From: Pseudodesulfovibrio thermohalotolerans | GTDB lineage: Bacteria; Desulfobacterota; Desulfovibrionia; Desulfovibrionales; Desulfovibrionaceae | Direction: 5' to 3' | Assembly: GCF_021353295.2 (NCBI RefSeq) | Contig: NZ_CP120635.1 | Location: forward strand, 62,001 to 126,000 | Length of the DNA stretch: 64,000 nucleotides | Part shown: piece by piece, positions 1 through 19,977 of the stretch | Numbering within the stretch: position 1 is the first letter of the stretch | Layout of the letters: every line of letters starts with the position of its first letter | Notes under the pieces: model-generated | Told to the model about the DNA's origin: nothing | Seen by the model: only the letters and a program-made list of their open reading frames with translations | Databases searched by the model: none | Program-made: the position numbers and the translations under genes

Positions 1-1
1 G

Positions 2-3575: not shown

Positions 3576-3594
3576 CATCATGAGGATACCACAA

Positions 3595-4344
3595 ATGCAT
3601 TACTTGAAATACGTTCTGTCCGTTGCCGCCGTCTGTCTCGTCCTTGCCGGGGGCTGGCCGGCGTCAGCCATGGACGCCGGGGAAGTGCTCCTGGCCGTGG
3701 ACCGCAACCTCGCCCCGGTCAGCTACGAATCCTACCGCAAGCTCATCAACATCGAGCCGGACGGGAGCAAAAGGGAATACGTCCTCTACACCATCAAGAA
3801 AGGCCAGGATATGGTGGCCTCCGTCTTCCTGGAGCCTTCCAGCGACAAGGGACGCGGGACCTTGCGCCTGGGCGACAACATGTGGCTCCACATTCCGAGC
3901 GTGGCCAAGCCGGTCAGGATAACCAGCCTCCAATCGGTAACGGGTGGCATCTTCAACAATGCCGATATCATGCGCCTAGACTACAGCGCCGAATATACGC
4001 CCGAATCCTTGGAGGAAAGCGGTGACGCCTATTTGCTTCGCCTGAAGGCGAAGACCAACGAGGTTGCCTACGACAGGCTGGAGATGCTGGTGGCCAAGGA
4101 CCGGTTGGTTCCGACGGAGATCAAGTGTCTCGCGGCGTCCGGGATGCTGATCAAGACCCTGCATTTCAAGAAGATGACCGATTTCGGCGGCGGGTTCGTC
4201 CGCCCGGCCATTGTCGAGACGGACAGCCCGCTCCACAAGGGGTACCTCTCGGTGATGATCTTCGCCCGGATGAAGGCCAGGGATTTCTCGGATGAAGTCT
4301 TCACCCTCAACTACCTGCCGCGGATTGAAACCCTTCGTCAGTGA
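3595..4344 (+). CDS. LolA-like outer-membrane lipoprotein-sorting family protein
   Basis: 249 residues with a cleavable signal peptide (VLSVAAVCLVLAGGWPASA). The mature part has the LolA-like half-barrel family pattern: short beta-strands and the conserved segment DNMWLHIPSVAKPVRITSLQ. It would act as a periplasmic shuttle for a hydrophobic ligand. The ATG at 3595 was chosen over 3556 and 3580 because GAGG lies 9 bases upstream and it gives a clean signal peptide. It is linked to the ABC pair and the barrel gene, so it is the likely periplasmic link between them. Confidence 0.82.
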   Translation: MHYLKYVLSVAAVCLVLAGGWPASAMDAGEVLLAVDRNLAPVSYESYRKLINIEPDGSKREYVLYTIKKGQDMVASVFLEPSSDKGRGTLRLGDNMWLHIPSVAKPVRITSLQSVTGGIFNNADIMRLDYSAEYTPESLEESGDAYLLRLKAKTNEVAYDRLEMLVAKDRLVPTEIKCLAASGMLIKTLHFKKMTDFGGGFVRPAIVETDSPLHKGYLSVMIFARMKARDFSDEVFTLNYLPRIETLRQ

Positions 4345-5741
4345 TGGCGGGAAACGGAATGACGAAAGCAGGTACATGGCTCGGGCCGTTCTTCTGCATG
4401 GCGCTCATCCTGGCTGCCTCGGCTTCGGCCCTTGCCCAGGATGAGCCCCTGTATGATGCGGATTTTGATATTTCCGCGACGGAAGAAAAGCACTTCGAGT
4501 TCTGGGGGCAGGCCGAGCTTCGGATGTACGAACGTCTTCTGAACAGGGATTCTGCGGTGTACGAGCAACGCTTCTTCGATTCCCCGAAGGACGAACTCCA
4601 GGCGGACCTGCTGTTCCAGCTCAAGCCCGAACTATCCCTGAAGTACGAGACGTTCGGGTTCTATGCCCGCCCGCGCGCCGACGTCGGATGGAGCCAGTTG
4701 CCCCTGTCGGCGGCCAGTGAACCGGACGAACCGTCGGAACGGTTTTTCAAGGACGACAAGCATTGGGCCGGGGAGGTCATGCTTGAGGAAGGCGTGGCCG
4801 CCTGGAGGCCGGACCCGAGATTCACGCTGGAAGCCGGGAAAAAGGTCCTCAAATGGGGCAAGGGATATGCCTGGAACCCCGTGAGCTTCGCCAGCCGTCC
4901 CAAGGACGTGGACGACCCGGACCAGAGCCGCGAGGGCTACGTCATGAGCGTCGCCGACGCCATCTTCAGTTTTGACGGTCCACTGAAGACGTTTGCGTTC
5001 ACTCCGGTAGTTGTTCCCGTATGGGAGCGGGTAAACACGGGGCTGGCCTCGGATGACAGCGTTCTCTACGGGGGGAAGCTCTACTTCCTGCTTTCCGATG
5101 TGGACCTAGACGTCATGGTCATGGCCGGAGACTATTATGATACGTCCCTCGGCTTCGACTTTGCTATGAACCTCACCGACAATTTCGCCATCCACGGCGA
5201 AACGGCGGTCCGGTTGGGCTACGAGAAGACGGTGTTCCACGATGACGGAACCCGCAGCGTTGACAAATACGACGCTTGGAGCTTTCTTCTTGGTGCCCGA
5301 TACCTGACCGAGGACGAAACGACCTATCTCCTTGAATATTACCACAACGGAGAGGGGTACACCGCTTCGCAACTAGAAACCTACTACGACTATGTCCACA
5401 CGGCGTACGACACGTATCAGGCCACGGGGAACGCCGCCGACCTGAATAAAAGCAAAAAGGTATCGTCCGATTACAACCGGAGCAGCGTCGGGCAGGACTA
5501 TCTATATTTCCGCGTGTCCCAAAAAGAACCTTTCGACATCCTCTACCTGAACACGACAGCGACCGTGATCATGAACCTCGGGGATCGAAGCCTCTCCCTC
5601 AACCCCGAAGCGTCCTACATGCTCACGTCCGACATCGAGTTGAGGCCCCGCCTCATCCTGCCGATCGGGGGCTCCGACACCGAGTTCGGCAACAAGCTCA
5701 ACGCAGCCAAGGGCGAACTCCGGTGCGTGTACTATTTTTGA
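4344..5741 (+). CDS. Outer-membrane beta-barrel protein of the ABC/LolA operon
   Basis: About 465 residues. A signal peptide ends at ASASALAQ, and the rest is rich in amphipathic, aromatic-bounded strands, ending in ELRCVYYF with the C-terminal Phe typical of outer-membrane barrels. The segment LEAGKKVLKWGKGYAWNPV resembles porin-like DUF1302-type barrels, but I cannot assign a named family. The start overlaps the previous stop (TGATG). An alternative ATG at 4359 gives a tidier signal peptide. It is probably the outer-membrane end of the transport route. Confidence 0.75.
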   Translation: MAGNGMTKAGTWLGPFFCMALILAASASALAQDEPLYDADFDISATEEKHFEFWGQAELRMYERLLNRDSAVYEQRFFDSPKDELQADLLFQLKPELSLKYETFGFYARPRADVGWSQLPLSAASEPDEPSERFFKDDKHWAGEVMLEEGVAAWRPDPRFTLEAGKKVLKWGKGYAWNPVSFASRPKDVDDPDQSREGYVMSVADAIFSFDGPLKTFAFTPVVVPVWERVNTGLASDDSVLYGGKLYFLLSDVDLDVMVMAGDYYDTSLGFDFAMNLTDNFAIHGETAVRLGYEKTVFHDDGTRSVDKYDAWSFLLGARYLTEDETTYLLEYYHNGEGYTASQLETYYDYVHTAYDTYQATGNAADLNKSKKVSSDYNRSSVGQDYLYFRVSQKEPFDILYLNTTATVIMNLGDRSLSLNPEASYMLTSDIELRPRLILPIGGSDTEFGNKLNAAKGELRCVYYF

Positions 5742-5913
5742 TCCGAACACCGAATTATTGAGCTTGCACCAATTCCCCCCCCGTTTCTCTTTCCGGCAAA
5801 TTTTGCGTGTCACCCAAGTGTCATTTTCAACGGCAACTATGGTTTTTGTGGTGAATATGGCGTTTTCAACCCATTGAAATAACGGAGGTAAGCGACCTTC
5901 CGGTTGATTGTTT
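5742..5913. other. AT-rich non-coding junction DNA left of the tRNA-Glu fragment
   Basis: No credible gene. The stretch is visibly more AT-rich than both neighbours and contains short repeated words (TTTCAAC at two places). It ends exactly where tRNA-Glu sequence begins at 5914. This is what the arm of a phage or island attachment site would look like, but no integrase is adjacent. Confidence 0.4.
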
Positions 5914-5962
5914 ACGGCCTTTCACGCCGTTAACAGGGGTTCAAATCCCCTTGGGGACGCCA
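5914..5962 (+). pseudogene. 3' portion of tRNA-Glu(UUC), from the anticodon stem to CCA
   Basis: Reads anticodon stem-loop with TTC, variable loop, a perfect T-arm (GGGGTTCAAATCCCC) and the acceptor strand TTGGGGACGCCA. No D-arm or 5' acceptor strand precedes it: the sequence left of 5914 is unrelated to tRNA. Bases 5914-5935 are identical to 18613-18634, where the matching 5' portion lies. The native terminator follows at 5972, so this is the original 3' side of a tRNA gene cut by recombination in the anticodon arm. Confidence 0.85.
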
Positions 5963-5971
5963 AGGATACCA

Positions 5972-6008
5972 AAGGCCTTACGCAGATTGCGTAAGGCCTT
6001 TTCCTTTT
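5972..6008 (+). terminator. Rho-independent terminator of tRNA-Glu
   Basis: A perfect 13-bp stem (5972-5984 with 5988-6000, arm AAGGCCTTACGCA) with a 3-base loop, followed by TTCCTTTT. It sits 10 bases after the tRNA CCA end. Confidence 0.85.
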
Positions 6009-6140
6009 CGCGCCTCTTCCCGACCGTCTGTTCCCGCCTCTTCCCGACCGCAACTTCCGGGCCCGCCTCCCGGCCACGCTCCCGCCGCCGAAAGGCGGGT
6101 CATTCCGACACAGCCATTTTCCCTGTTCGGGTCAATAGGG

Positions 6141-6183
6141 AACGGTCCGCGCGGGCTCCCCACCCCGCGTTCCGGACCGTTTT
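6141..6183 (+). terminator. Long hairpin, possible terminator or regulatory fold
   Basis: Arms AACGGTCCG (6141-6149) and CGGACCGTT (6173-6181) pair perfectly. An inner CGCGGG/CCCGCG stem and a three-base bulge follow. Only two Ts come after it, so it may be a terminator insulating the AOR operon or a structural element. Confidence 0.4.
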
Positions 6184-6291
6184 ACCCTGCCCGAAAAATT
6201 CCCTCATTTTTTCCAAATCGGCGATGCTGTAAGGCTAGCATTATGCCCAAATCATGCACGAAATAGCGGGACCCGCGTGTTGCCGCGGAGG

Positions 6292-6307
6292 TGGTCCCGG
6301 AATTGCT
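6292..6307 (+). promoter_or_regulatory. Candidate sigma-54 (-24/-12) promoter of the AOR operon
   Basis: TGGTCCCGGAATTGCT has GG and GC at the 12-base register required by sigma-54, with an intact TTGCT -12 box; the -24 box departs from TGGCACG at three positions. The GTG start of the ferredoxin gene lies about 48 bases downstream. An inverted repeat CGGGACC (6267-6273)/GGTCCCG (6293-6299) spans the region. The operon encodes its own sigma-54 activator (13223-14560), which makes the site plausible. Confidence 0.4.
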
Positions 6308-6354
6308 CAAGGCGTGTTCATGCGGTTCAACGCGAAACACAACAGGAGGTAACT

Positions 6355-7017
6355 GTGAGCACCAACAAGGCAATGGACCATACGGCAACCGAGGAAGCGG
6401 CCGACGCCCGTCCGGCGGTCAAAAAGGAATCGTCACCGTGCAAGGGGAAGGGGATATCGCGGCGCAAGATGCTCGGGTTCCTGGGCGTCCAGGTCGTGGC
6501 TGGAACCCTGGCCGGGGCGGCCATGGCGGCCCCCAAGAATTTCAAGGCGGAACACTACAACCGGGGGATCACGCCGGACCAGCTGCCCAACACGCGCTCC
6601 TGGTTGATCACCGACCCGACCACCTGCGTGGGCTGCCGGACCTGCGAGATCGTCTGCTCCCTGGGGCACGACGACATCTGCCAGCCCGCCCTGTCCCGAA
6701 TCCACACCACCTATGACCCGCAGCACAAGCTGGTCAAGCTGGCGGTCATGCCCGACGTCTGCCGCCAGTGCAACATGGCCGACTGCTACCTGGCCTGCGA
6801 ATACGACGCCCTGACCCTTGATCCGAAGACCGGAGCGCGGGTCATCGATCCCGCCAAGTGCCAGGGGTGCGGCGAATGCTTCGCGGCGTGTCCCTACGAC
6901 ATGATCGTGGAGAACAAGGAGAAGAGCATCTTCTCCAAGTGCGACCTCTGCGGCGGCGACCCCATGTGCGTCAAGTACTGCCCGGCGGACGCCCTGAAGT
7001 TCATCGAACTCGGTTAA
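6355..7017 (+). CDS. Tat-exported [4Fe-4S] polyferredoxin of the AOR locus
   Basis: 220 residues from a GTG start with AGGAGGT four bases upstream. A twin-arginine signal is visible at about residues 34-60 (SRRKMLGFLGVQVVAGTL then AGAAMA). The body has four ferredoxin-type Cys clusters: CVGCRTCEIVC, CRQCNMADCYLAC, CQGCGECFAAC and CDLCGGDPMCVKYC. That is the HycB/DmsB-like electron-transfer subunit pattern. It lies 25 bases before AOR and is presumably its electron partner. The oddity is that AOR itself has no export signal. Confidence 0.88.
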   Translation: MSTNKAMDHTATEEAADARPAVKKESSPCKGKGISRRKMLGFLGVQVVAGTLAGAAMAAPKNFKAEHYNRGITPDQLPNTRSWLITDPTTCVGCRTCEIVCSLGHDDICQPALSRIHTTYDPQHKLVKLAVMPDVCRQCNMADCYLACEYDALTLDPKTGARVIDPAKCQGCGECFAACPYDMIVENKEKSIFSKCDLCGGDPMCVKYCPADALKFIELG

Positions 7018-7042
7018 CCACACAACCCAAGGAGACAGTACA

Positions 7043-9187
7043 ATGTACGGATGGGCTGGAAAGATATTGCGAGTCAACCTGGACGACGGTTCCATAGTCA
7101 AGGAAGATACGTCCAAGTACCTGAATTATACCGGGGGCATCGGTTTCGGCTACAAGGTGGTCTTCGACGAGGCGCCCACGGCGGGTCCTTTTGACCCCGA
7201 GAACCGGATCATCTTCGCGGTGGGGCCGCTGACGGGCTCGCTGGCGCCCTCCACCGGGCGCTCCGAGGTCATCTCCATCTCGCCCCACGTCTACGCGCCC
7301 AAGTCCAAGCGCCCGCTGGTCACCCGTAGCGGTTTCGGAGGCTATTGGGGCGCGGAGCTGAAGTTCGCGGGCTACGACGCGGTGATCGTCCAGGGCAAGG
7401 CCAAGAAGCCGGTCTTCATCAACGTCGTGGACGACGAGGTGACCATCGAGGACGCCTCGGCCATGTGGGGCAAGGACACCTTCGAGACCCAGGACATGAT
7501 CAAGGCCAGGACGGGCGACGAAAAGACCCAGATCGCGGTCATCGGCCCCTCCGGCGAACGGCTGGTGCGCATCTCCCCGATCATACACCGCATCGGCAAC
7601 GCGGCGGGCCAGGGCGGCTTCGGCGCGGTCATGGGGTCCAAGAACCTCAAGGCCATCGCCATCCGGGGCACCAAGGGCGTCAAGGTCGCGGACAAGAAGA
7701 ACCTGATCCAGTACGTCAAGAGCGTGCGCGAGTTCCAGCCGGGCCCCCTAGGCTCCACCCCGCTGTCCACCGGCGCGCTCAGCTGGACTGAGAAGCACGT
7801 GGACCCCAAGGACATCAACAAGCAGGCCCTGCGCTTCGACCAGACCGAGAGCTGCGCCCCCTGGCTGAACAAGTACCACGTCAAGTCCCAGTCCTGCTAT
7901 TCCTGCCCCCAGGGGTGCTACTCCTACATGAACGTGGACGGCATGGGCGGCGGCGCGGTGAGCTGCACCCAGTGGTTCTACTCCTGGCTGGGCAACCGCG
8001 ACAAGGCCACCTTCCTGGCCAACCAACTGGCCAACAAGCTGGGCGTGGACACCTTCGAGATGTTCCCCATGATCCAGTTCGTCTGGTACCTCCAGGACAC
8101 CAAGGTGGGCGGCAAGGACCTGGTGCAGCTCCTCCATGAAAAGAAGCTGGTCAGCGACGAGATCATGGCCGGCCTCGAAAAGGGCCACTACCCGCCCAGG
8201 GGCGACTTCAGCACCGACGGCCTGGAGACCATGATGAACATGATCGCCTACCGTCAGGGCTTCCTGGGCGACGCCCTGGGCGAGGGATTCCGCCGGGCCA
8301 TGGACATCATCGCCGCCAAGTTCGAGTCCATGGGCATGAAGGAAGCCGCGCAGAAGACCATGCACTTCGAAAACATGGAAGGCATCATGGGCGGCGTCGT
8401 GGGCGGCAACGGCGGCTGGGGCATGTCGGCCCACTACGACCCGCGCACCTTCGGCTACTACTGGGCCGTGAACTTCGCGGTGGAGAACCGCGATCCCAAC
8501 CGCCACTCCATGACCAACCTGGTGGAATGGACCGGCCTGACCTTCGAACAGGCCATGCCCGTGGCCATCCGGCACTGGGGCGAGGAGATCGCGGAGAACG
8601 GCCTCAACGACCTGCACCGCAAGCGCGACGTCCCCCTGACCTGGAACGGCGAGAAGTCGGCCAAGGCCAACGCCTACCTGGGCCAGTTCATCCACTACCG
8701 CGGCTGCATCAAGGACAGCATCACGGTCTGCGACTGGGTCTTCCCGATCATGACCAGCGGCCGCAAGGACCGCGACTACACCGGCGACATCAGCGTGGAG
8801 TACAAGCTCTTCGAGCTGGTCACCGGCGAGAAGATGACCCAGAAGACCCTGGACGACAAGGCGGCCCGGATATGGGTCCTGCACCGGCTGCTGACCGCCA
8901 TGGAATGGGGCGGCGGCCGCAAGGTCAACCTGCGCGAGGAGCACGACCAGCTGCCCGACCACTTCTTCGCGCCCGTGGAGACCCGTCTGCTGCCGAGCTA
9001 CCCTCCGGCCGACCCGCCCCATCCCCCGCTGGTCCGGGAGAACTTCGAGGCGGTCAAGAACGAGTACTACAAGCTCATGGAGTGGGACCCCGAGACCGGC
9101 CTGCCCACCCGGAAGCTGATGAAGCGGCTGGGCATGGACGCCGAACTGGCGACCTTCGAGAAGAAGGCGTTCCCGCTCCCGGCGTAG
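7043..9187 (+). CDS. aor: Aldehyde ferredoxin oxidoreductase
   Basis: 714 residues with the AOR family start (YGWAGKILRVNLDDGS) and the pterin-binding N-terminal domain (GFGGYWGAELKFAGYDAVIV). The [4Fe-4S] motif CYSCPQGC lies near residues 285-293 with a fourth Cys near 562 (SITVCDW). The enzyme oxidises aldehydes to acids with ferredoxin using a tungsto- or molybdopterin cofactor. AAGGAG precedes the ATG and no signal peptide is seen, so it is cytoplasmic unless co-exported with the Tat ferredoxin in front. The iron alcohol dehydrogenase downstream could supply aldehyde or remove it. Confidence 0.94.
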   Translation: MYGWAGKILRVNLDDGSIVKEDTSKYLNYTGGIGFGYKVVFDEAPTAGPFDPENRIIFAVGPLTGSLAPSTGRSEVISISPHVYAPKSKRPLVTRSGFGGYWGAELKFAGYDAVIVQGKAKKPVFINVVDDEVTIEDASAMWGKDTFETQDMIKARTGDEKTQIAVIGPSGERLVRISPIIHRIGNAAGQGGFGAVMGSKNLKAIAIRGTKGVKVADKKNLIQYVKSVREFQPGPLGSTPLSTGALSWTEKHVDPKDINKQALRFDQTESCAPWLNKYHVKSQSCYSCPQGCYSYMNVDGMGGGAVSCTQWFYSWLGNRDKATFLANQLANKLGVDTFEMFPMIQFVWYLQDTKVGGKDLVQLLHEKKLVSDEIMAGLEKGHYPPRGDFSTDGLETMMNMIAYRQGFLGDALGEGFRRAMDIIAAKFESMGMKEAAQKTMHFENMEGIMGGVVGGNGGWGMSAHYDPRTFGYYWAVNFAVENRDPNRHSMTNLVEWTGLTFEQAMPVAIRHWGEEIAENGLNDLHRKRDVPLTWNGEKSAKANAYLGQFIHYRGCIKDSITVCDWVFPIMTSGRKDRDYTGDISVEYKLFELVTGEKMTQKTLDDKAARIWVLHRLLTAMEWGGGRKVNLREEHDQLPDHFFAPVETRLLPSYPPADPPHPPLVRENFEAVKNEYYKLMEWDPETGLPTRKLMKRLGMDAELATFEKKAFPLPA

Positions 9188-9232
9188 GGGCAACCGTTCC
9201 TGGTTCACCTCCGTGGCAGGAGCGTTCAACAA

Positions 9233-9269
9233 CCCCGGCCCCCCCACCGTCCTTCCCGGGGGGCCGGGG
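9233..9269 (+). terminator. GC-only 12-bp hairpin between AOR and the radical SAM gene
   Basis: CCCCGGCCCCCC (9233-9244) pairs perfectly with GGGGGGCCGGGG (9258-9269). No T-run follows, so it more likely tunes mRNA processing or partial termination inside the operon than ending it. Confidence 0.4.
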
Positions 9270-9316
9270 CATACCGTCCGGGGCGGACGCGCCCGGGACC
9301 AAACCTAGGAGGATGG

Positions 9317-10714
9317 ATGAAGGCATTGCTCCTGACCCCTCCCGCACCCCGGCTCTGGAACCCGTCCACGGCCGAAGAGGACCTGCTCCCGGCAAAGACC
9401 TGGGTTCCCCTCGGCATCGCCTATCTGACCAGCGCCCTGCGCGCCAACGCCGTTACGACCGTGTTCCGCGACCTGCACGGGGAGACCTGGCCCGAGGTCG
9501 CCGCCCTGCTCGAACGCGAGCAGCCCGACCTGGTGGGCATCAGCTGCTTCACCCTGGGCCGGACCAACGCCGACCGCCTCGCCTCCGAGGCCCGGCGCGT
9601 CCTGCCCCAAGCGCGCATCGTCGTGGGCGGGCCGCACGCCACCTTCTTTCCGGAGCACGTCCTCGCCAACCCCGCCGTGGACGTGGTGGTCCTGGGCGAG
9701 GGCGAGGAGACCATCGTCGAACTGGCGGACTGTTTCGAGCGGGGCGGCGACCTCGCCGAAATCCCCGGCCTGGCCCTGCGCACTGCGGGCGGCGTGCTCC
9801 GCACCCGGGCCAGGGAGCGGTCCACGGACCTGGACGGCCTGGCCTTCCCGGCCTACGACGCCTTTGATCTCGCCGAATACAAGTCCCCCGAGATTCCGCC
9901 GCAATACCGGGACCTCGTCGGGACCCACGTGCTCAGCTCGCGCGGCTGCCCCTTCCACTGCGGCTTCTGCTCCGTGAACCGGTTCTTCGAGGGCCGCTGG
10001 GCCAGGCGCTCGCCGGCCAACGTGGCCGACGAGGTCGAGCGGCTCGTGACGGACCTCGGCGTCGGCCATCTCTACTTTTCCGACGACCTGTTCACCCTGG
10101 ACCGGCAGCGCATCCTCGACCTCTGCCGGGAGATCGCGGAGCGCGGGCTGCGCTTCGCCTGGATGGCCGAGACCCGCGTGGACCTGGTGGACGGGGAGCT
10201 GCTCGCCCGGATGCGCGAGGCCGGATGCTACCGGATCTACTACGGGGTGGAGTCCGGCAGCCCGCGCGTGCTCAAGGCGGCCAACAAAGGGTTCACCGCC
10301 GACCAGGTCCGCGAGGCCTTTGCCCTGACCCACGGGGCGGGGATCGAGCCGTGCTGCTTCCTCATGGTCGGCAACCCCGGCGAGAACCCCGAGACCATCG
10401 AGGAGACCGTGGCGCTCATCCGCGAGATCCGCCCGGCGACCATGCCCATCCTGGGCATCAACACCCTGCTTCCGGCCTCTCCCCAGTACGAGCGGGCCAA
10501 GGCGGCGGGGCTGATCAGCGACGGGTACTGGCTCGGCAAGGACGCGCCGCCCCCGTACACCCTGGAGCACGATGTGGACGATCTGATCCATCTGCAGATG
10601 CTCCTGACCAGGGGCATCGCCCCGCAGGTTTACGAGCAACTGCGCGCCATGGGCTTCGACGAGAAATACTTCCTCATGCGCCGCATGGCCAAGGGGATGG
10701 ACGGCCGGGCGTGA
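9317..10714 (+). CDS. B12-binding-domain radical SAM protein (BchE/P-methylase-like)
   Basis: 465 residues. An N-terminal cobalamin-binding-like Rossmann domain (residues 1-140: GIAYLTSALRAN, VVVGGPHATFFPEHVL, VVLGEGEETIVEL) precedes a radical SAM core with CPFHCGFC near residue 215 (C-x3-C-x2-C). The motif RDLHG stands where the B12 ligand DxHxxG is expected but does not match fully. AGGAGG precedes the ATG. The substrate cannot be told; the position between AOR and the alcohol dehydrogenase suggests a role in the same pathway or in its cofactor. Confidence 0.85.
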   Translation: MKALLLTPPAPRLWNPSTAEEDLLPAKTWVPLGIAYLTSALRANAVTTVFRDLHGETWPEVAALLEREQPDLVGISCFTLGRTNADRLASEARRVLPQARIVVGGPHATFFPEHVLANPAVDVVVLGEGEETIVELADCFERGGDLAEIPGLALRTAGGVLRTRARERSTDLDGLAFPAYDAFDLAEYKSPEIPPQYRDLVGTHVLSSRGCPFHCGFCSVNRFFEGRWARRSPANVADEVERLVTDLGVGHLYFSDDLFTLDRQRILDLCREIAERGLRFAWMAETRVDLVDGELLARMREAGCYRIYYGVESGSPRVLKAANKGFTADQVREAFALTHGAGIEPCCFLMVGNPGENPETIEETVALIREIRPATMPILGINTLLPASPQYERAKAAGLISDGYWLGKDAPPPYTLEHDVDDLIHLQMLLTRGIAPQVYEQLRAMGFDEKYFLMRRMAKGMDGRA

Positions 10715-10784
10715 CGGGCCCAGGGCGGGGCGGCGACCTCTTGCAGACAACCGCCCGGAGAGAAAAGATTTTTTTCGTACCGCC

Positions 10785-10813
10785 TTGATCGCGGATGGGC
10801 AAGGCGCTATACA
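10785..10813 (+). promoter_or_regulatory. Candidate sigma-70 promoter before the alcohol dehydrogenase
   Basis: TTGATC (10785-10790), a 17-base spacer and TATACA (10808-10813). The GTG start lies 20 bases beyond the -10 box with AAGGAA between, so the leader would be very short. It is an internal promoter that could uncouple the dehydrogenase and two-component genes from AOR. Confidence 0.4.
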
Positions 10814-10832
10814 TGAAACAAAAGGAATCACC

Positions 10833-11975
10833 GTGGACATATTCAAAGTCGCCATACCGGAAGTGATCTTCGGACGGGGGAGCCTGCAATACGCCAGCAT
10901 CTGTGCGAAAAGGCTCGGCGCGTCCAAGCTGTTCGTGGTCTCCGACCCCGGCGTGGAGCGCGCGGGCTGGGTGGAGGCGCTCCTCGACATCCTGCGCAAG
11001 GAACAGCTGGACTTCGTCTATTTCAATGACGTGGTTCCCAACCCGCGCGACTTCCAGGTCCACAACGGCGCGGACCTCTACCGCCGCGAAGAGGCGGACG
11101 TGGTCATGGCTCTGGGCGGCGGCAGCCCCATGGACGCGGCCAAGGGCATCGCCCTGATCGTCAGCAACGGGGGCGAGATCGCCGACTACGAGGGGGCCAA
11201 CATGGTCCGCCGCCCCCTGCCGCCCATGGTCTTCATCCCCACCACCATGGGCAGCGAGTCGAACATCTCGCAGTTCACGGTGGTCACCGACGTGGAGCGG
11301 CGGGTGAAGATGACGGTCATCAGCCGGACCCTGGTCCCGAACATCTCCATCACCGACCCGCTGCTGCTCGAAACCCTGAGCCGGGACCAGATCATCCCGC
11401 CCCTGTTCGACTCCCTGGCCCACGCCGTGGAGTCCTACGTCTCGCCCATCGCCAATCCGTTCACCGAGGCCTGGAGCCTCAAGGGGCTGGACCTGCTCAT
11501 CCGACACATCCGCCCCGCCCTGGAGCACCGCAGGCTGGAGGACCTCGAACAGCTGGCCATCGCCGGGACCTCCTCGGGCATGGCCTTCACCAACGCCAGC
11601 GTCGGCCTCGGCCACGCCCTGGCCCACGCCCTGGGCGGCATGCACGACGTGGTCCACGGCACGGCCCACTCCCTGCTCCTGCCCAGCGTCATGCGCTTCA
11701 ACCTCCCGGTATGCGCGCCCAAGATGGCCAAGATCGGCGAGATCATCACCGGCAAGCGGCTCGGAACGGACGAGGCCACGGCCCTGGCGGGCATCGAGGC
11801 CCTGGAGCAGCTGCGGGAGGAGATCGGCATCCCCTGCCGTCTGCGCGAGATCCTGCCGGACCGGACCATGCTGCCCCAGGCGAGCCACAACGCGGTCAAG
11901 GACATCTGCCTGCTGACCAACCCCCGGCAGGCGGACTGGAAGGACATCCTGAACATCTACTACGAGATGTGGTGA
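10833..11975 (+). CDS. Iron-containing (group III) alcohol dehydrogenase
   Basis: 380 residues. It has the family's nucleotide loop (ALGGGSPMDAAKGIAL, about residue 90) and metal ligands in DSLAHAVESY, HALAHALGG and HDVVHGTAHS. It interconverts alcohols and aldehydes with NAD(H). Paired with AOR it gives an alcohol to aldehyde to acid route, or the reverse. The GTG at 10833 was chosen because AAAGGAA is upstream and family members begin near FKVAIPEVIFGRGSL; the longer reading from 10785 would run through the -35 and -10 boxes. Confidence 0.93.
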   Translation: MDIFKVAIPEVIFGRGSLQYASICAKRLGASKLFVVSDPGVERAGWVEALLDILRKEQLDFVYFNDVVPNPRDFQVHNGADLYRREEADVVMALGGGSPMDAAKGIALIVSNGGEIADYEGANMVRRPLPPMVFIPTTMGSESNISQFTVVTDVERRVKMTVISRTLVPNISITDPLLLETLSRDQIIPPLFDSLAHAVESYVSPIANPFTEAWSLKGLDLLIRHIRPALEHRRLEDLEQLAIAGTSSGMAFTNASVGLGHALAHALGGMHDVVHGTAHSLLLPSVMRFNLPVCAPKMAKIGEIITGKRLGTDEATALAGIEALEQLREEIGIPCRLREILPDRTMLPQASHNAVKDICLLTNPRQADWKDILNIYYEMW

Positions 11976-11976
11976 C

Positions 11977-13215
11977 ATGAGCAGGGAAGACGGCAACGGA
12001 GACTCCGGCGTCAGCGCGAGCCTCGACGACATCATCGGCATCGAGTCCATCAAGCTCGGGTTCTTCAAGGAAGTCCAGAAGACCATCAACGAGCTCAAGG
12101 CCTCGAACATCGAGCTCGAACGCAAGCGCCGCGACGTCCAGGACATCCTCAACGGCATCCCCGACGTGGTCGCCGTGGTTTCCCGCGAGTACAAGGTGCT
12201 CTCGGTGAACAGCGCCTTCTACGAGACCTACGGCAGCCGCGACCCCATCGGCCTGCCCTGCTACCGGGTGTTCAAGGGCGCGGACAAGCCGTGCCTGCCC
12301 TGCCCCCTGCTCATGGCCAGGGAGGAGGGCCGCAAGGTCTGCCGCCAGTTGCAGATCATGAACATCGACGGCGAGAACAGGCAGATCGAGTGCTCCGCCG
12401 CGCTCATGCCCGGCACCGGCGACGCGCCGGGCAAGGTCCTGCTCCTGCACCGCGACGTGACCGTGGAGAAGCAGTACCAGGCCAAATATTTCCAGGCCGA
12501 GCGCATGGCCACCGTGGGCGTGCTGGCCGAGGGCGTGGCCCACGAGATCAACAACCCCCTGACCTCCATCCGGGGCTTTGCCGAGGCCTTGTCCGGCCAC
12601 CTGGGCCGGCTGGGCGCCTGCCTCAAGGACGGCGAGCAGTGCAACGACCTGCTCGAAACCTTCGAGGAGTATCTCGACATCGTGCTCCAGGAGTGCAACC
12701 GGTGTTCGGAGATCGTCCAGAACCTCCTCAGCTTCGGCCACCGCGACGTGCGCTCCATGACCATCGTCAACATCAACAACATCATCGTCAACTGCCTGAA
12801 GCTGCTCCAGCCCAGGCTGGCATCCCTGCCGTCCGGGGTCATCGGCCTCTCCCTGTCCGAGGAGGAGCCGTGCCTCATGGGCCATCCGGGCGAGCTGATG
12901 CAGGTGGCGCTCAACCTGATCGTCAACGCCCTGTACGAAGTCCGCGACACGGGCGGCACCATCCGCATCACCACCAGCGTGACAGGGAGCATGATCCAGC
13001 TGCGGGTCTCGGACACGGGCAAGGGGTTCGAGCCCGAGGACGCGGAAAAGCTGTTCCAGCCCTTCTTCACCACCAAGCCCGCCGGCCAGGGCATCGGCAT
13101 CGGCCTGTCCACCTGCTACAACATCATCATGAAGCACGGCGGCGAGATAACCGCCACGAGCGAGCCGGGCAAGGGCGCCGTCTTCGAGGTCATCCTGCCC
13201 CGGCTGGAGGAGTAG
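11977..13215 (+). CDS. PAS-domain sensor histidine kinase
   Basis: 412 residues, no membrane segments, so cytoplasmic. An N-terminal coiled coil (about 25-55) leads to a PAS domain with an unusual Cys cluster (CYRVFKGADKPCLPCPL, near 88-104). A HisKA domain with H-box VAHEINNPLTSIRGF (near 180) and a HATPase_c domain (DTGKGFEPEDAEKLF, GIGIGLSTCYNI) follow. It starts one base after the dehydrogenase stop and is followed 7 bases later by its response regulator. The Cys cluster suggests redox or aldehyde sensing; this is inference. Confidence 0.92.
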   Translation: MSREDGNGDSGVSASLDDIIGIESIKLGFFKEVQKTINELKASNIELERKRRDVQDILNGIPDVVAVVSREYKVLSVNSAFYETYGSRDPIGLPCYRVFKGADKPCLPCPLLMAREEGRKVCRQLQIMNIDGENRQIECSAALMPGTGDAPGKVLLLHRDVTVEKQYQAKYFQAERMATVGVLAEGVAHEINNPLTSIRGFAEALSGHLGRLGACLKDGEQCNDLLETFEEYLDIVLQECNRCSEIVQNLLSFGHRDVRSMTIVNINNIIVNCLKLLQPRLASLPSGVIGLSLSEEEPCLMGHPGELMQVALNLIVNALYEVRDTGGTIRITTSVTGSMIQLRVSDTGKGFEPEDAEKLFQPFFTTKPAGQGIGIGLSTCYNIIMKHGGEITATSEPGKGAVFEVILPRLEE

Positions 13216-13222
13216 CCGCGCC

Positions 13223-14560
13223 ATGACCGCCCCTGAAACCAACCGCATCCTGGTGGTGGACGACGAGCCGTTCATCCGCAAGCTGGCCGAACGAGAACTG
13301 GCCCTGCCCGGCAGGGAGGTGACCACCGCGGCCACGGCGGCGCAGGCCCTGCGTCTGGCCAAGCGGAACGGATTCGACGTGGTCCTGCTGGACGTCCGGC
13401 TGCCCGACGGCAACGGCAACCGGCTCCTGGAGCACTTCCGGGAGACCCTGCCCGACGTCGAGGTCATCATGATCACCGGCTACTCCGAGGTGGACAGCGC
13501 GGTGGAGGCCATGAAGGCCGGGGCCTACGACTACGTGACCAAGCCCTTCTCCCTGGACCGCATGAACCTGCTCATCGACCGCGCCTACCAGCGGCGGCTC
13601 ATGCAGCGGGAGCTGCGCATGAACAAGGGGGGCAAGGCCAGGGCGACGCTCATCGGGACCTCGGCGCCCATGCGCCAGATCGGGTTCCTGGTGGACAAGG
13701 TCGCGCTCACGGACGCGCCGGTGCTGATCACCGGGGAGAGCGGCGTGGGCAAGAACGTGGTCGTCAACGTCCTGCACAGCCGCAGCTCGCGGGCGGAGAT
13801 GCCGCTCATCGTCAAGAACTGCGGCGCGTTCAACAAGGAGCTGCTGCGCAGCGAGCTGTTCGGCTACTGCAAGGGCGCGTTCACCGGGGCCGAAACCTCC
13901 CAGGAGGGCGTTCTGGCCCAGGCGGACAAGGGGACACTGTTCTTCGACGAGGTGGGCGAGCTGCCCCTGGAGGTCCAGGCCATGCTGCTTCGGGTCTTCG
14001 AGTCCCAGACCTACCGCCGCGTGGGCGACCGCGAGGAGCGGTCCGTGGACGTCCGCTTCCTCTTCGCCACCAACCGCGACCTGGCCAGGGAGGTGGAGGA
14101 AGGCCGCTTCCACGAGGCCCTGTACCATCGGCTGAACGTCTTCCGCATCGACATTCCCCCGCTCAGGGAGCGCAAGGAGGACATCCCGCAGCTCATCGAG
14201 CACTTCCTGCAGAACCTCTACCCGGACCGGCCGCCCTACCGGCTGTCCAAGCGCGCCGGGCAGAGCATGATCGCCTACGACTGGCCGGGCAACGTCCGCG
14301 AGCTGCGCAACGTCATCGAGCGGGGCATCATCCTGGCCGAAAACGACCTGATCACCACCAAGTGCCTGCCCTCGGACATCGCCGACTCCCTGGAGCAGGG
14401 CGAACCGCTCGCCGCGCTGCCCACCCTGGAGCAGCAGGAGAAACGGTACATCCTGCGGGTCATGGAGCACGTCGACCAGAACCGCACCCAGGCCGCGCGC
14501 ATCCTCGGCATCGGGCGCAAGACCCTGTACCGCAAGCTGCGCTCCTTCGAGGAATCCTGA
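13223..14560 (+). CDS. Sigma-54-dependent NtrC-type response regulator
   Basis: 445 residues. The receiver has acidic pocket VVDDEPF, phosphoacceptor [13 protein letters not shown] and Lys in YVTKPF. The AAA+ domain has Walker A GESGVGKN, an intact GAFTGAETS loop for sigma-54 contact and Walker [13 protein letters not shown] Fis-type helix-turn-helix ends the protein ([20 protein letters not shown]). It is the partner of the kinase in front and presumably activates the candidate -24/-12 promoter at 6292 and thus its own operon. Confidence 0.94.
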
Positions 14561-14573
14561 TCCGATCCGCCCG

Positions 14574-15611
14574 TTAGCGGGTCTGCAACAGCATCAGCCC
14601 GACCAGGGCGGCCAGCAGCGCGGTCCAGATGAGGGCCGCGCGCAGGGTGGCCTTCTTGGCGCGCTCTTTTTCATACCAGGAAAGGGGACGGATGCCCTGG
14701 GCCAGGAAGGTGACCACGCCCGCCAGGTTCAGGCAGATGACGTTGACCGCGAAGAGCAGCCCCGCGCCGCCCGCCTCCGGGAGCATGGACGCGCCCAGGA
14801 ACAGGCCGCAGGCGATGAGCGGCGGGAGCAGGGACAGGGCGACCATAACCCCCACCAGGGAGGTGGGCACGCCCAGGGTCACGGTGATGATCCCGGCCGC
14901 GCCCGAGACCATGGCCAGGACGATGTCGGAAAATTCGGTCACGCTGCGGCTCATCAGCTCTTCGGACGGGTCGGGCAGGCCGAGCAGCAGCCCGGCTCCG
15001 GCGGACAGCGCGAAGCACAAAACCACGCCCACGGCCAGGGTCTTGATGGACTCCCAGGTGAGCTTCCTGTCCCCCAGGGTGGTGGCCAGGGCCAGCCCCA
15101 CGTTGGGGCCGAGCAGCGGGGCCAGGACCATGGCCCCGATGATGATCGCCACGTTGCCGCGCATGAGGCCGATGATCCCCACCAGCGACGAGAACAGCAC
15201 GAGCATGGCGTAGTGCCGGGAGAGCAGGGTCGTGTCCAGGACGTCGGCATACAACTCCTCGCGGCTGATGCGGCCGTTGCCGTTGCCCTTTGCCTCTTCC
15301 TCCTGGAATTGGTCCCCGCTCTTCTTCGCCTCCTCTTCCTTGGTCAGCGGGTCCAGCCGGGGCAGGGTCGCCTCGGCCGGGTAGACCACGATCCGGTACT
15401 TGTCGGTCCAGGCGAAGAGGTTCTCCAGCTTGTCCAGGACGTCCTCGGTCTCGCGCACGTCCAGGACCACGCGGAAGGACAGGGACTCGCCGTCGTCCAG
15501 GGGGGAACCCCAGAACACGTAGCCCTCGTCGGACTGGCGTTCCTCAAGGGACTTGGCCACCTCCTCCTTGTCCTTGCGGGGGGTGACGATCTCTATGACG
15601 CGCAATGCCAT
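14574..15611 (-). CDS. TIGR00341/DUF389 family membrane protein
   Basis: 345 residues. A soluble N-terminal ferredoxin-like domain (about 1-115, starting RVIEIVTPRKDKEEVAKSL) precedes six or so membrane segments (from HYAMLVLFSSLVGIIGLM to ALIWTALLAALVGLML). DUF389 proteins are widespread and their transport role is not established. The gene converges on the response regulator with 13 bases between the stops, so it is not part of that operon. Confidence 0.85.
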   Translation of the reverse strand: MALRVIEIVTPRKDKEEVAKSLEERQSDEGYVFWGSPLDDGESLSFRVVLDVRETEDVLDKLENLFAWTDKYRIVVYPAEATLPRLDPLTKEEEAKKSGDQFQEEEAKGNGNGRISREELYADVLDTTLLSRHYAMLVLFSSLVGIIGLMRGNVAIIIGAMVLAPLLGPNVGLALATTLGDRKLTWESIKTLAVGVVLCFALSAGAGLLLGLPDPSEELMSRSVTEFSDIVLAMVSGAAGIITVTLGVPTSLVGVMVALSLLPPLIACGLFLGASMLPEAGGAGLLFAVNVICLNLAGVVTFLAQGIRPLSWYEKERAKKATLRAALIWTALLAALVGLMLLQTR

Positions 15612-15716
15612 GCAATACCTCGCAATGGTTGATCCGCGAGGAGTAGCACAAAGGGCGGGGGGAGTACATGCGCCGGTCGGCCCGCCCCCCTTGCGGAGAG
15701 CGGGCCGCCGTCCGCA

Positions 15717-18215
15717 CTAGGAGGAGCCGAGTTCGCCGATCAGGCCGTCCAGCTCCTTGGCGATGGAGGCCAGCTCGTGGCAGGCGCGGGCGGATTCGGC
15801 CATGGCCTCGCTGGTGTTCCTGGAGATGCCGTGCATCTCCTCGGTCGCCTTGGTGATCTGTTCCGAGGCCGAGGACTGCTCCTCGGCGGCGGCGGCGATG
15901 CCCTGGACCTGGAGCACGGAGTCGCGGGAGACCTCCACGATGGCCTGCAGGGAGTCGCCCGCGTCGCGGGCCAGGGAGGTGCAGGTCTCGACCACGCGGG
16001 CCACCTTGTCGGTCTCGCTGACGTTGCGCTGGGCCATGCCCTGGATGGCGCCGATGGCGTTGCCCACCTCGGTGGTGGCGACCATGGTCTTTTCGGCCAG
16101 CTTGCGGACCTCGTCCGCGACCACGGCGAAGCCGCGCCCGGCGTCGCCCGCGCGGGCCGCCTCGATGGCCGCGTTGAGCGCCAGCAGGTTGGTCTGGTCC
16201 GCGATGTCGTTGATCACGGTCATGACCTTGCCGATGCCCTCGGCCTGTTCGCCCAGCTCGCCCATGTTCGCCTTGAGGGTGGAGGCGAGTTCCCGGACCT
16301 CGCCGACGGTGGAGGCCACCTCGACCACCACGTCGCGTCCGGCCTGGGCCTGCTCGGCGTTGTGGGCCGCGTCGTTGGCGTTGCGGGCCACCTCCAACAC
16401 GGTGGAGTTCATCTCGTCCATGGCCGTGGCCGTCTCGGTGGCGCGGGCGCTCTGCTCCTCGGCCCCCTGGCGCGATTCCTCGACGCGGTCAAGGAGCTGG
16501 CCCGAGGCGGTGGTCATGCGCTCCGAGAGCCGACCGGCCCGGTCCGCGACCCGCTGCATCTTGCGCTGGGAATCGAGGATATCGGTCTGGTCCACTACCA
16601 CCTCAAGCGCGCCGACCACGTTCTGGTGCTCGTCGAACAGCGGCGAGGCGTAGCCCTTGATGTCCACGGTGCCCTTGTCCAGGACCCCTCTGGTGGAGCC
16701 CACGGACCGTTTGCGGGTCCGCATGGATTGGGTGCAGACACAGTTCTCCGTGTCGCAGATGTCGGTGTTGAAGACCCCGCTGCACGGCTTGCCGAGCAGC
16801 TCGTGGTCGCTCCTGCCCGCGATCTCCTGGGCGTTCTTGTTCAGGAAGAGCAGCTTGTGGCCCTGGTCCACGGAGAACACCGGGAACGGGAAGGAGTCGA
16901 AGGTCGCGGTATAGGTGTCGGCCACCCGGTTCATGGACCGGATGAGCTGGGCATAGGCCCCCTCGTAGCGCGTGGCGTCGCCGCGCGTCCGGATCACGCC
17001 GCGTCCCACCTCGCGGGCCGTGGCCTCGCAGTCGTCGATGAGCGCGCTCAGGGTCGCCGGGATGCGGCTCACCGAGCGGTGGATGGAGCCGATCTCGTCC
17101 GTGGAGGCCGCCGGCTCGCCCTCGGCCAGGTTGCCGCGCGAGACGTCCTCGGCCAGGGCGCGGATGCGGTCCAGGGGCCGGAACACGGCGTAGCGCAGGA
17201 CCACCATGAGGGTCAGCAGCGGCACCACCACGGCCAAGCCGAAGAGGATCAGGACCAGCACCGAGGCGCTGTCCAGGATGGAGTTCTGCAGGGAAATGTC
17301 GCGGGCCAGGGTGATCACGCCGATGTTCTTGCCCTGGTAGTCCTTGACCGGCAGGTAGGCCACGGCGAAGTCCCCGGTGATGGTCACGTACCGGCCGTCC
17401 TCGGCCTTGCGCAGCATGTCCGCCGTGACCGCGCCGTCGAGCTGCGCGTTCTCCTTGCCCGCCACGCGGACAAAGGCGTCGTCCACCAGCGGGTACTTGG
17501 CCGGGTCCTGGAGATTGGTCGTGGTCGGCAGCAGGGAACTGCTCATGTACAGGGTGTAGTAGCTGCCCGCCTCGTCCTGGAAGAGCTTGAACACGTCGCC
17601 GTAGCTCTTGAGCACCTCCACCGAGCCGAGCCGGTTGCCCGCCGCGTCCTTGACCGCCACCAGGCCGCGGATGGCGAATCCGCCGCGCCCGGGCTCAATG
17701 CCCCGGCGGGGCTGGCCGTCGCGGTTCACGTCGATGACCGTCTTGCGGAAGCTCGAGATGTCGTCCGAGATGTCCACCCACTTGCCGTTTCGCTTGGCCT
17801 GCTTCTCGCGCCACATGCGGGCCAGGCTGCGCGCGTTGGGCAGGTGGAAGTGCAGCTGGAGCTTGTCCCCCAGGGTCTCGCTGTACCCCGCCATGGTGGA
17901 GGCCAGGGCCTGGCGCAGCCCTTCGCGGGCGGACTGCACCACCGGGTCGCTCTCGTCGTTGATGTTCCCCTGGTGGGCCAGGGTGAAGGCCTCGATCACC
18001 GCGGGCATGCGGCTGAACAGGGCCGCCTCCTCCTGGGCGCGGACCGCCGCCTCCTCGGTGTTCTGCTCCAGGGTCCTGGCGGCGTCGCCGACCAGCATCT
18101 CCGCATAGGAGGTCCTCAGCTCGTCGAACTGCCCGCTCAACAGCAGATAGCCGCCGCAGCCGATCAGAAGGACCAGCGGAAGGGTCGGCAACAGGATCTT
18201 AAATTTGATGCTCAT
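15717..18215 (-). CDS. Methyl-accepting chemotaxis protein with periplasmic double-Cache and Cys-rich PAS domains
   Basis: 832 residues: membrane segment 1 ([19 protein letters not shown]), a large periplasmic ligand domain (about 30-310, with [15 protein letters not shown] typical of double Cache), membrane segment 2 ([20 protein letters not shown]), HAMP, then a PAS domain with clustered Cys ([17 protein letters not shown]). The MCP signalling domain follows, with the hairpin tip [20 protein letters not shown] near residue 670. There is no CheR-docking pentapeptide at the C-terminus. GGAGC precedes the ATG. The ligand is unknown; the Cys-PAS could add redox sensing. Confidence 0.93.
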
Positions 18216-18455
18216 ATTCGTGCTCCGATGACCAGGGACACCGGCCCCTCAGACGGGCCCCCGAAATGTATAAAGAAATGACCTCCGGCATGAAAAAACA
18301 GCCGTATCGTAACACGATTCAATAGGAACTCAACACATCGTACACAATTATATTCAATAAGTTCGAACATTCACAAACCCGACAATCCCATCTGGCAAAG
18401 GTTCTCCCTTGGGCCGACTCGCTTGTGAAAAATCGACGTATCTCTTTGGTAACAC

Positions 18456-18502
18456 CCGTGCGCAACCGCCATGGCCGAAAAGGGTTGCGCGGGAGTTTGT
18501 TT
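18456..18502 (+). terminator. Hairpin with T-rich tail in the MCP/tRNA gap
   Basis: GCGCAACC (18460-18467) pairs with GGTTGCGC (18483-18490) around a 15-base loop, and TTTGTTTT follows at 18495. It resembles a Rho-independent terminator for rightward transcription. The rest of 18216-18583 holds the MCP promoter side and no credible gene. Confidence 0.4.
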
Positions 18503-18583
18503 TATGTAAGAAGGCGACCTCCACGGACGGGCAACCCTCCGCGGGAGGCCGCCCCCACCGGGGGAACGCCTTCCGCCCCATGC

Positions 18584-18634
18584 GTCCCCATCGTCTAGCC
18601 TGGTCCAGGACGACGGCCTTTCACGCCGTTAACA
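18584..18634 (+). pseudogene. 5' portion of tRNA-Glu(UUC), from the acceptor strand through the anticodon arm
   Basis: Starts with the acceptor strand GTCCCCA, then the D-arm (TCGTCTAGCCTGG) and anticodon arm with TTC. Past 18634 the sequence departs: AGAATTCAAAGTGG replaces GGGGTTCAAATCCC, so neither the T-arm nor the 3' acceptor strand can form. The last 22 bases (18613-18634) equal 5914-5935. Joining 18584-18634 to 5936-5962 gives a complete tRNA-Glu with CCA in which every stem pairs. Confidence 0.85.
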
Positions 18635-18757
18635 AGAATTCAAAGTGGATCTCATCACTGGTCGACCAGCACGTTTCCATGACCGAGTGCAGCGCGCCGA
18701 CTGTCCGTGAACGTGTTCTCAGCATTCTTGAGCGCAAGCGACAAGGTCTACTGCACC

Positions 18758-18789
18758 TGTGTCAATGATGGAAAATTATCATTGGCACA
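18758..18789. promoter_or_regulatory. 12-bp inverted repeat upstream of the nuclease gene
   Basis: TGTGTCAATGAT (18758-18769) and ATCATTGGCACA (18778-18789) pair with one mismatch around an 8-base AT-rich spacer. It could be a regulator binding site in the element. The remainder of 18635-18884 shows no convincing gene. Confidence 0.35.
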
Positions 18790-18884
18790 GGGTTTGCCCG
18801 CAACAGCGTATCTGTTTGAAACCTTGAGCCAGAGGGCCGGAGGGGATACAAGAGCGCCAAGATCAACTAATCCTTGGGGCCCAC

Positions 18885-19562
18885 ATGGCTAATAGATTTC
18901 TCTCGATCCTACTCCTAATCCTTCTTTTTTTCACCGGCCTGTCTCACGCTTTCATGGGCAAAGTCGTCGGGGTAGCTGATGGCGATACCATCACGGTGTT
19001 GGCCGAAGGGAATACGACCATCAAGGTTCGGCTCTACGGCATCGATGCCCCCGAGAGCAGGCAGGACTTCGGCAACAAAGCCAAGCAGAATCTTACATCG
19101 CTGGTATTCGGTAAGATCGTTGACATGGAGCCCATGGCCCAGGACAGGTACGGTCGGACCGTCGCCCACATCTTCGTTGATGACCAAGACGTGTGTGAAG
19201 CCCTTGTGCGAGCGGGCATGGCCTGGGTTTACCTCATTTACTGCCGAGAAAAGCCCACATGTGACAACTGGCTTATGTTTGAGCAAAAGGTCAGAGTTGC
19301 GGGCGTGGGCCTGTGGGCCAGTCCGTCACCGCAAGCACCTTGGGAGTGGCGACGGGGAGGTGGGGTTAAGGGTGACGCGCTTGCTCCTGCACCCAAATAC
19401 CAAGCCGCCTCGGGCACTGTGTATCATGGAAACATCAGCAGTCACGTTTTTCACCGGCCTGGATGTCGCCACTACGACTGCAAGAACTGCGTTGAAAACT
19501 TCGAGAAGCGCAAGGATGCGATTCGGGCTGGGTACAAACCCTGCCAGATATGCAGCCCCTGA
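18885..19562 (+). CDS. Secreted thermonuclease-family (SNase-like) protein with C-terminal Cys/His domain
   Basis: 225 residues. An N-terminal signal (FLSILLLILLFFTGLSHAF) precedes a staphylococcal-nuclease-like OB fold with catalytic motifs VADGDTITVL, RLYGIDAPESRQ and DRYGRTVAHIF, as in Ca-dependent SNases. The C-terminal 45 residues (HVFHRPGCRHYDCKNC then CQICSP) form a metal-binding-looking domain resembling the Ada-type zinc domain often attached to such nucleases. Codon use is less GC-biased than in flanking genes, in line with transfer. It probably degrades extracellular or periplasmic nucleic acid. Confidence 0.85.
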   Translation: MANRFLSILLLILLFFTGLSHAFMGKVVGVADGDTITVLAEGNTTIKVRLYGIDAPESRQDFGNKAKQNLTSLVFGKIVDMEPMAQDRYGRTVAHIFVDDQDVCEALVRAGMAWVYLIYCREKPTCDNWLMFEQKVRVAGVGLWASPSPQAPWEWRRGGGVKGDALAPAPKYQAASGTVYHGNISSHVFHRPGCRHYDCKNCVENFEKRKDAIRAGYKPCQICSP

Positions 19563-19639
19563 CCCCTAGAGTGGCTTCCTTCATCAGGGCAAGGGCATCA
19601 GGTACAGCATTGTGCGGGGATGAGCATGAAGAAGAAATT

Positions 19640-19852
19640 ATGCAAGACCAACGAACGTCGGCCATGGGATGTGCTCAACTGCTCAAAATCATGCTACCTG
19701 GCAGCGCCCCGTGGAAGCAGGCCAAGATGAAACGCCACGAATTCGAGGCACTCCTCCTTGAGATGCCCGACGGGTTCACGGAATATGTCTCCAAGGAAGC
19801 CGAGGTCGAGAGGCTGCTTGAGGCCGTGTTCGGCAAGGACAGATTGAAGTGA
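19640..19852 (+). CDS. Small hypothetical protein of the element
   Basis: 70 residues from ATG 19640, preceded by GAAGAAGAAA. Not recognised. The sequence is Glu/Lys-rich at the end (EYVSKEAEVERLLEAVFGKD) with no membrane segment or Cys motif. The frame is open from 19550, but that would overlap the nuclease gene. 19853-19977 behind it holds nothing obvious. Confidence 0.4.
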   Translation: MQDQRTSAMGCAQLLKIMLPGSAPWKQAKMKRHEFEALLLEMPDGFTEYVSKEAEVERLLEAVFGKDRLK

Positions 19853-19977
19853 GGAGTGGCGGTTACCATGCGGCAACCTCCTGAATTGCCCAAAGAAGAC
19901 CCAAAAAGCCATTTCCAGCACAGGGCAAGGAGAATTGAACGCCTCAAGGGTCTTTCTGTGGAAAATGTAGCCGGTTT

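Follow-up and report, generated by a model that had tools for sequence, protein, structure and literature searches.

A tRNA-Glu-bounded chromosomal block at a putative disused attachment site of a serine-recombinase element in comM of Pseudodesulfovibrio thermohalotolerans

Crossover centred on the anticodon and a displaced 3' fragment are standard features of islands in tRNA genes, and the Islander collection, in the portion of the source used here, counts 2083 anticodon-centred sites among 3919 islands (PMC4383910). Integrative elements also grow by accretion and gene capture, and cis-mobilizable elements (CIMEs) are described, in part of the same literature, as decayed islands (PMC5704250). 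Streptococcal integrative and conjugative elements (ICEs) combine related bodies with either tyrosine or serine integration modules (PMC4701971, in part), and some Dehalococcoides islands at ssrA have no integration module and were proposed to be cis-mobilizable (PMC3146451, in part). Here, a 12.7-kb block at positions 5914 to 18634 of a window from Pseudodesulfovibrio thermohalotolerans was analyzed, the window being the whole stretch of 64,000 nucleotides that corresponds to positions 62001-126000 of a single-contig 3.89-Mb genome (NZ_CP120635.1). The block carries an aldehyde ferredoxin oxidoreductase (AOR) cassette, is bounded by two halves of a tRNA-Glu gene and lies inside an element that splits comM. 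The explanation towards which we lean is that a disused tRNA-Glu attachment (att) site of this serine-recombinase element took in 12.7 kb of chromosome resembling that of G032, by way of a composite circle. Genomes of the genus and compared stretches are given by handles such as G032 and L008; C1 coordinates refer to the genome under study.

Both edges of the block carry the same 22-mer, ACGGCCTTTCACGCCGTTAACA, which is present in two copies in the window and was matched in none of 100 dinucleotide shuffles at up to three mismatches. The edges comprise the following features:
5914 to 5935, plus strand: left copy of the core, covering the anticodon arm (sequence read, shuffle test)
18613 to 18634, plus strand: right copy of the core (sequence read, shuffle test)
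5936 to 5962, plus strand: 3' half of tRNA-Glu(UUC) with CCA (ARAGORN on the joined ends)
18584 to 18612, plus strand: 5' half of tRNA-Glu(UUC) (ARAGORN on the joined ends)
A hairpin terminator follows directly 3' of the 3' half. ARAGORN detected no tRNA-Glu in the window as it stands and called an intact 78-nt tRNA-Glu(UUC) once position 18634 was joined to 5936. The original prediction, made from the letters of the window, had claimed the identical 22 bp at both coordinates, the 3' half with its terminator on the left, the 5' half on the right and a complete tRNA on joining at the core, and all of this was borne out. Intact tRNA-Glu(UUC) genes were counted at two other places in the genome (C1:3090504 and C1:3107735) and a tRNA-Glu(CUC) gene at C1:3566502, so that the genome does not depend on the split gene. 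The two intact UUC genes rule out a permuted or trans-spliced tRNA, as does the block-free element of G012 described below, which has no tRNA halves. An anticodon-arm core and a displaced 3' fragment are shared with the islands that PMC4383910, as far as it was drawn upon, describes; the difference is that here the tRNA is not restored at the locus and its halves face outward from a block inside another element.

Both flanks of the block belong to a single 18.5-kb element with a large serine recombinase, whereas the original prediction had seen no integrase. Protein families were assigned by Pfam scans of selected open reading frames (ORFs), and the element is composed as follows:
1 to 5913: left part of the comM element, extending 9.4 kb further left to C1:52572 (no gaps and 5 single-nucleotide polymorphisms, SNPs, against G012 over 15,365 bp including the core)
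18635 to 21804: right part of the comM element (1 SNP against G012 in 3,192 bp including the core)
18885 to 19562, plus strand: staphylococcal-nuclease-like protein (SNase, 8e-23)
19978 to 21798, minus strand: large serine recombinase (Resolvase, Recombinase and zinc-ribbon domains)
21800 to 22283, plus strand: C-terminal part of the split comM gene, continuing the comM of relatives (sequence read)
21800 to 21804, plus strand: TCCCT, common to both comM junctions (other copy at L008 10572-10576)
The N-terminal part of comM (L008 9520-10578) ends 9.4 kb left of the window, and the two comM junctions are 31.2 kb apart, 12.7 kb of which is the block. The three recombinase domains, together with a short end identity in an interrupted gene that is intact in relatives, are those of a large serine recombinase and its element; the best NCBIfam match of the enzyme is CcrB, far under the cut-off of that model. 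At the limit set, 34 of the 36 genomes of the genus gave a comM match, with an open frame of more than 500 aa in 27 and a shorter one in seven. Three of these seven (this genome, G012 and G011) carry a serine-recombinase element in comM; the element comparison was confined to them, G001, G008, G009 and G030 being the other four.

A direct comparison is offered by G012, another species of the genus, where the same element sits in comM and the block is absent. The empty junction on contig C4 of G012 reads TTGATTGTTT-core-AGAATTC, that is, left arm, core and AGAATTC, and differs at 3 of 272 bases from the outer join predicted for the window (5913, core, 18635). The two element copies are of equal length and differ by 6 SNPs over 18,535 bp, with near-identity all the way from the core across the recombinase gene, and the block thus appears as a difference at one point between them. 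The comM N-parts of the two genomes are only 86% identical, which points to recent movement of the element between species. G011 carries a third, more distant element of the comM type (83%); its comM parts with element ends are 1.9 Mb apart (G011:C1 3878447 and 1954782), as if a rearrangement had split the element. Three explanations had been offered originally. Two elements in two tRNA-Glu genes flanking the block are excluded, since the flanks are contiguous in G012, and the same block-free element makes an assembly join very unlikely as the cause of the arrangement; the joins rest on the assembly and are backed by the separate empty site. The remaining proposal, entry of a block circle into the att site of a resident element, survives in part: a single resident element with an att-like site accounts for both flanks, the block terminates in tRNA-Glu halves and the empty site exists, but the element lies in comM beside a serine recombinase and not in a tRNA-Glu gene.

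The nature of the att-like site was deduced from its left side:
5806 to 5913, plus strand: left arm, a conserved element end (with the core, 27 similar places in 11 of the 36 genomes)
When the 27 ends were aligned (row L173 shows the same place as L171), 13 were followed by a tRNA-Glu 3' half and 13 were not; the remaining one, L172, was followed by a degenerate half. Arm, core and 3' half in this order make up the displaced end typical of tRNA islands. Such an island is present in this genome, where an 11.5-kb element with a PF00589 tyrosine integrase lies between an intact tRNA-Glu gene (tRNA-Glu1) and a displaced 3' half at C1:3101999; its cores are identical to those of the block. In G033, a body like that of the comM element (89% over 15.3 kb) starts 1.7 kb after an intact tRNA-Glu2 and ends in arm, core and 3' half, and is therefore a tRNA-Glu island there. 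By comparison with G033, the integration module of the comM element appears to have been replaced. We consider it fairly probable, as part of the favoured explanation as a whole, that the comM element has kept its old tRNA-Glu attachment site (left arm and anticodon-arm core), which it would no longer use. The streptococcal ICEs, in the portion of PMC4701971 used here, likewise show related bodies with either type of integrase; the difference is that here the old att site would have stayed and taken in foreign DNA.

Ends without a tRNA-Glu half were compared with the right side of the empty site. Five of them (L015, L161, L163, L167 and L175) reach a tRNA-Leu-like 3' end about 140-200 bp past the core, and an intact tRNA-Leu(CAG) with that 3' end lies 33 kb before L015 in this genome; they are read as abandoned att sites, the target having changed. 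On its right side, the comM element matches L175 of G033 at 24 of 29 positions in register, better than 300 shuffles, and none of the other six non-Glu ends compared exceeds its 300 shuffles (L161: 34 against a shuffle maximum of 39). Two further places in this genome resemble parts of these islands. L011 4062-5680 (C1:2534062-2535680) is a 98.6% copy of the native stretch of arm, core, tRNA-Glu 3' half and IS110 (L010 10885-12506); it sits between two tRNA-Leu 3' ends, its core is 3 bases short, and it is perhaps a second capture event. From L019 6502 to about L020 3951 (C1:3566502-3583951), a related element follows tRNA-Glu(CUC); it contains 3.0 kb of the element body as an 85% copy, and both its end and its 3' half have diverged.

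The contents of the block were assigned as follows:
6082 to 14573, plus strand: AOR cassette (95.1% identical to G032 over 8,503 aligned positions; the coordinates are the edges of the match)
6277 to 7017, plus strand: 4Fe-4S ferredoxin-like protein (Pfam Fer4 families)
7043 to 9187, plus strand: AOR, 714 aa (AFOR_N 8e-65, AFOR_C 2e-36)
9317 to 10714, plus strand: B12-binding radical SAM protein (Pfam scan)
10785 to 11975, plus strand: iron-containing alcohol dehydrogenase (Pfam scan)
11977 to 13215, plus strand: PAS sensor histidine kinase (Pfam scan)
13223 to 14560, plus strand: sigma-54-dependent response regulator (Pfam scan)
14574 to 15611, minus strand: DUF389 membrane protein (Pfam scan)
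15717 to 18215, minus strand: methyl-accepting chemotaxis protein (MCP), 832 aa (Pfam scan; sister to G032 in the MCP tree)
The right third of the block points to the kind of locus from which it came, as DUF389 and this MCP natively lie between two tRNA-Glu genes in the genus. The order in G007 is tRNA-Gln, tRNA-Glu1, DUF389, MCP, tRNA-Glu2 and tRNA-SeC, with no element between. Among eight close MCP genes (the own native copy and those of G002, G007, G012, G017, G027, G032 and G033), an intact tRNA-Glu follows the MCP gene within the stretch compared in seven, G002 being the exception, and an intact tRNA-Glu1 was seen before it in five. An element-free relative with two intact tRNA-Glu genes, which had been named at the outset as evidence to the contrary, does exist, namely G007, yet the arrangement there is that of the native locus, a version of which this genome retains elsewhere.

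The block is closely related to G032. Across the 4.1 kb that comprise DUF389, MCP and the 5' half, identity to G032 is 92.6%, and the MCP gene of the block is 94.9% identical to that of G032 and 76% identical to the native copy of its own genome; an origin of the MCP part from the own native locus was rejected on these values. The MCP tree (12 rows) joins block and G032 as sisters (100/100) and the own native copy with G007 (99/99). The comM N-part DNA of this genome is likewise nearest to G007 (90%), against 84% to G032. The block resembles the conserved chromosomal interval tRNA-Glu1-DUF389-MCP-tRNA-Glu2 plus an AOR operon. The cassette lies about 1 Mb from tRNA-Glu2 in G032, and none of the AOR stretches compared has a tRNA-Glu beside the AOR genes, which argues either for a donor from an unsampled G032-like lineage or for a separate step in which the AOR cassette was added. 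Past the operon, G002 and G022 share no flank with G032 except for matches to regulator genes, and one G033 stretch shares 4.3 kb at 71% with the G032 region 4 kb before the operon.

The way in which the block entered is indicated by the SNPs between the two element copies:
5864, 5885 and 5894 (5864 to 5894): SNP cluster against G012, 3 of the 6 SNPs in the whole element
All three lie within 50 bp left of the core, and at least three of six SNPs would fall in the last 72 bp with a chance of about 1e-6 if SNPs were evenly spread. At each of the three positions, the letter is that of element ends found in G017, G033 and G002 (L156, L157, L159, L166 and L170), and over 5864-5913 the arm is identical to L156 of G017; the full set of three letters is absent from each of the three further arms in this genome. 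The cluster and its letters suggest that the core probably entered together with the adjoining end of the arm and the 3' half, from a chromosome with an element already in tRNA-Glu1. The left crossover was probably homologous and within the arm, between two element ends, and the right crossover is read as an exchange in the shared 22-bp anticodon core that tRNA-Glu elements use.

These letters also bear on the other accounts of the locus. The circle entry proposed in the original prediction, with a block circle formed from two tRNA-Glu cores and taken up at the element att site by core exchange alone, would explain both the intact tRNA-Glu of the joined ends and the existence of the empty site; a circle of the block without the left arm leaves the three arm SNPs unexplained, and we regard this route as improbable. 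The reverse direction, with the element containing the block being older and G012 having lost it by core-core recombination, draws on the near-identity of the copies, whose divergence gives no direction. It appears very improbable: a core deletion would leave the arm letters unchanged, and the right junction requires that a core-AGAATTC site existed before, L175 of G033 showing a comparable right side after the core without a tRNA-Glu half. The main rival is uptake of an imported linear G032-like fragment by a resident comM element as in G012, through homologous recombination in the left arm and a second crossover at the short identity of the core. One event in the recipient would suffice, with about 130 bp of arm homology on the left and the 22-bp core on the right, and the SNP cluster fits equally well; that the right crossover should fall on the anticodon core of tRNA-Glu elements would be luck, and we consider this a possible but rather unlikely route.

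Under the composite-circle explanation, the acquired stretch would have run from the displaced tRNA-Glu 3' half left by a tRNA-Glu1 element through the AOR cassette, DUF389 and MCP to the 5' half of tRNA-Glu2. A comM-type element may have entered tRNA-Glu2 by core exchange with the help of a tyrosine integrase; the own tRNA-Glu1 element has a PF00589 integrase gene. Its left arm would then have recombined homologously with the arm of the tRNA-Glu1 element to yield a circle holding both, and the serine recombinase would have placed this composite in comM. Several points weigh against this explanation. The SNP cluster consists of three letters only; the AOR cassette is beside a tRNA-Glu half in no sampled genome, so that the donor arrangement is a reconstruction; and the right side of the presumed old att site has no usual tRNA 3' half, its use by an integrase being putative. 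The comM element also encodes a tyrosine-recombinase-like protein of its own (PF12835, 38 bits, L008 10773-11732), so that the integrase need not have acted in trans.

The composition of block and carrier can be set against the known systems. None of the eight scanned block proteins matched Pfam families of recombinase or transfer genes, smaller ORFs lying outside the scan, and the block is flanked by att cores like those of the own tRNA-Glu element. Such a recombinase-less segment, bounded by att cores and linked to a related element through a tRNA-type att site, is the likeness to accretion and CIMEs as far as PMC5704250 was drawn upon. It differs in that native chromosomal genes are present, the two ends are tRNA-Glu halves and the carrier is in comM beside a serine recombinase; the decayed ICE or integrative and mobilizable element from which a CIME derives is missing, because one third of the block, on the right, is chromosomal DNA native to the interval that two tRNA-Glu genes enclose. 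The capture would work like accretion with gene capture, through an att site fallen out of use in the carrier. Serine-recombinase islands that bear metabolic genes of an anaerobe are also known from Dehalococcoides, where the ssrA islands, in the part of PMC3146451 used, stand in tandem at the tmRNA gene, in contrast to an insertion in a disused att site. The open-licence literature searched gave no matching case for comM with a serine recombinase, for AOR islands or for the tungstate regulator mentioned below, and print may differ; it does include papers on Acinetobacter baumannii resistance islands in which the word comM occurs.

The AOR cassette had originally been seen as a metabolic module with its own two-component system. 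The kinase and regulator pair (11977-14560) agrees with this; the DUF389 and MCP third is a native chromosomal interval and not part of AOR regulation, and the Pfam scan replaced the earlier assignments of these two genes. Five AFOR_C loci are present in the genome, that of the block included, and a gain of AOR as a new function is unsupported. A second AFOR family gene lies in the window at 49791-51545 on the minus strand. AOR enzymes use tungsten. Left of the window, the comM element encodes, beside TauE-like transporters, a protein with an Xer-like (PF00589) part and TOBE/Mop molybdate-tungstate binding domains (L008 13918-15036, minus strand), a composition that we take to be like that of TunR, the tungstate regulator of Desulfovibrio. 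A link between this tungstate-type regulator and the tungsten-using AOR is possibly worth a look.

Among 18 scanned proteins of the element, none matched Pfam families of relaxases or type IV secretion, small ORFs and the origin of transfer lying outside the scan. The serine recombinase region had no match in the plasmid collection and no confirmed relative among viral contigs; the comparison of 12 further loci covered three (L083, L084 and L087). The element body contains a long conserved non-coding stretch with GC-rich palindromes (L008 11840-12540), and Rfam gave no match in L008 10000-14000. After comM, GC-rich inverted repeats at 22285-22617 of the window have similar copies at other loci of the genus.

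At tRNA genes, accretion and gene capture are for the most part deduced from tandem remnants. For the block described here, sequence shows the empty carrier, the product, the tRNA-flanked interval in its native form and a close relative of the donor sequences, and one junction bears the trace of a homologous exchange between element ends. On a wider and less certain reading, mobility would operate at two levels, with the serine recombinase moving the composite and a tRNA-Glu integrase moving the block; a circle of the block would carry an intact tRNA-Glu gene, and a composite circle, if formed, would join AACAAGTCCCT to AATTATATTTTC. The capture would also give ordinary chromosomal genes beside tRNA genes a route into an element that now resides in a protein gene. 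For the genus as a whole we suggest, tentatively, that att sites disused after a change of integrase may persist as landing pads inside mobile elements, through which elements with a different recombinase could gather whole stretches of chromosome bounded by tRNA genes and transfer them from one species to another.

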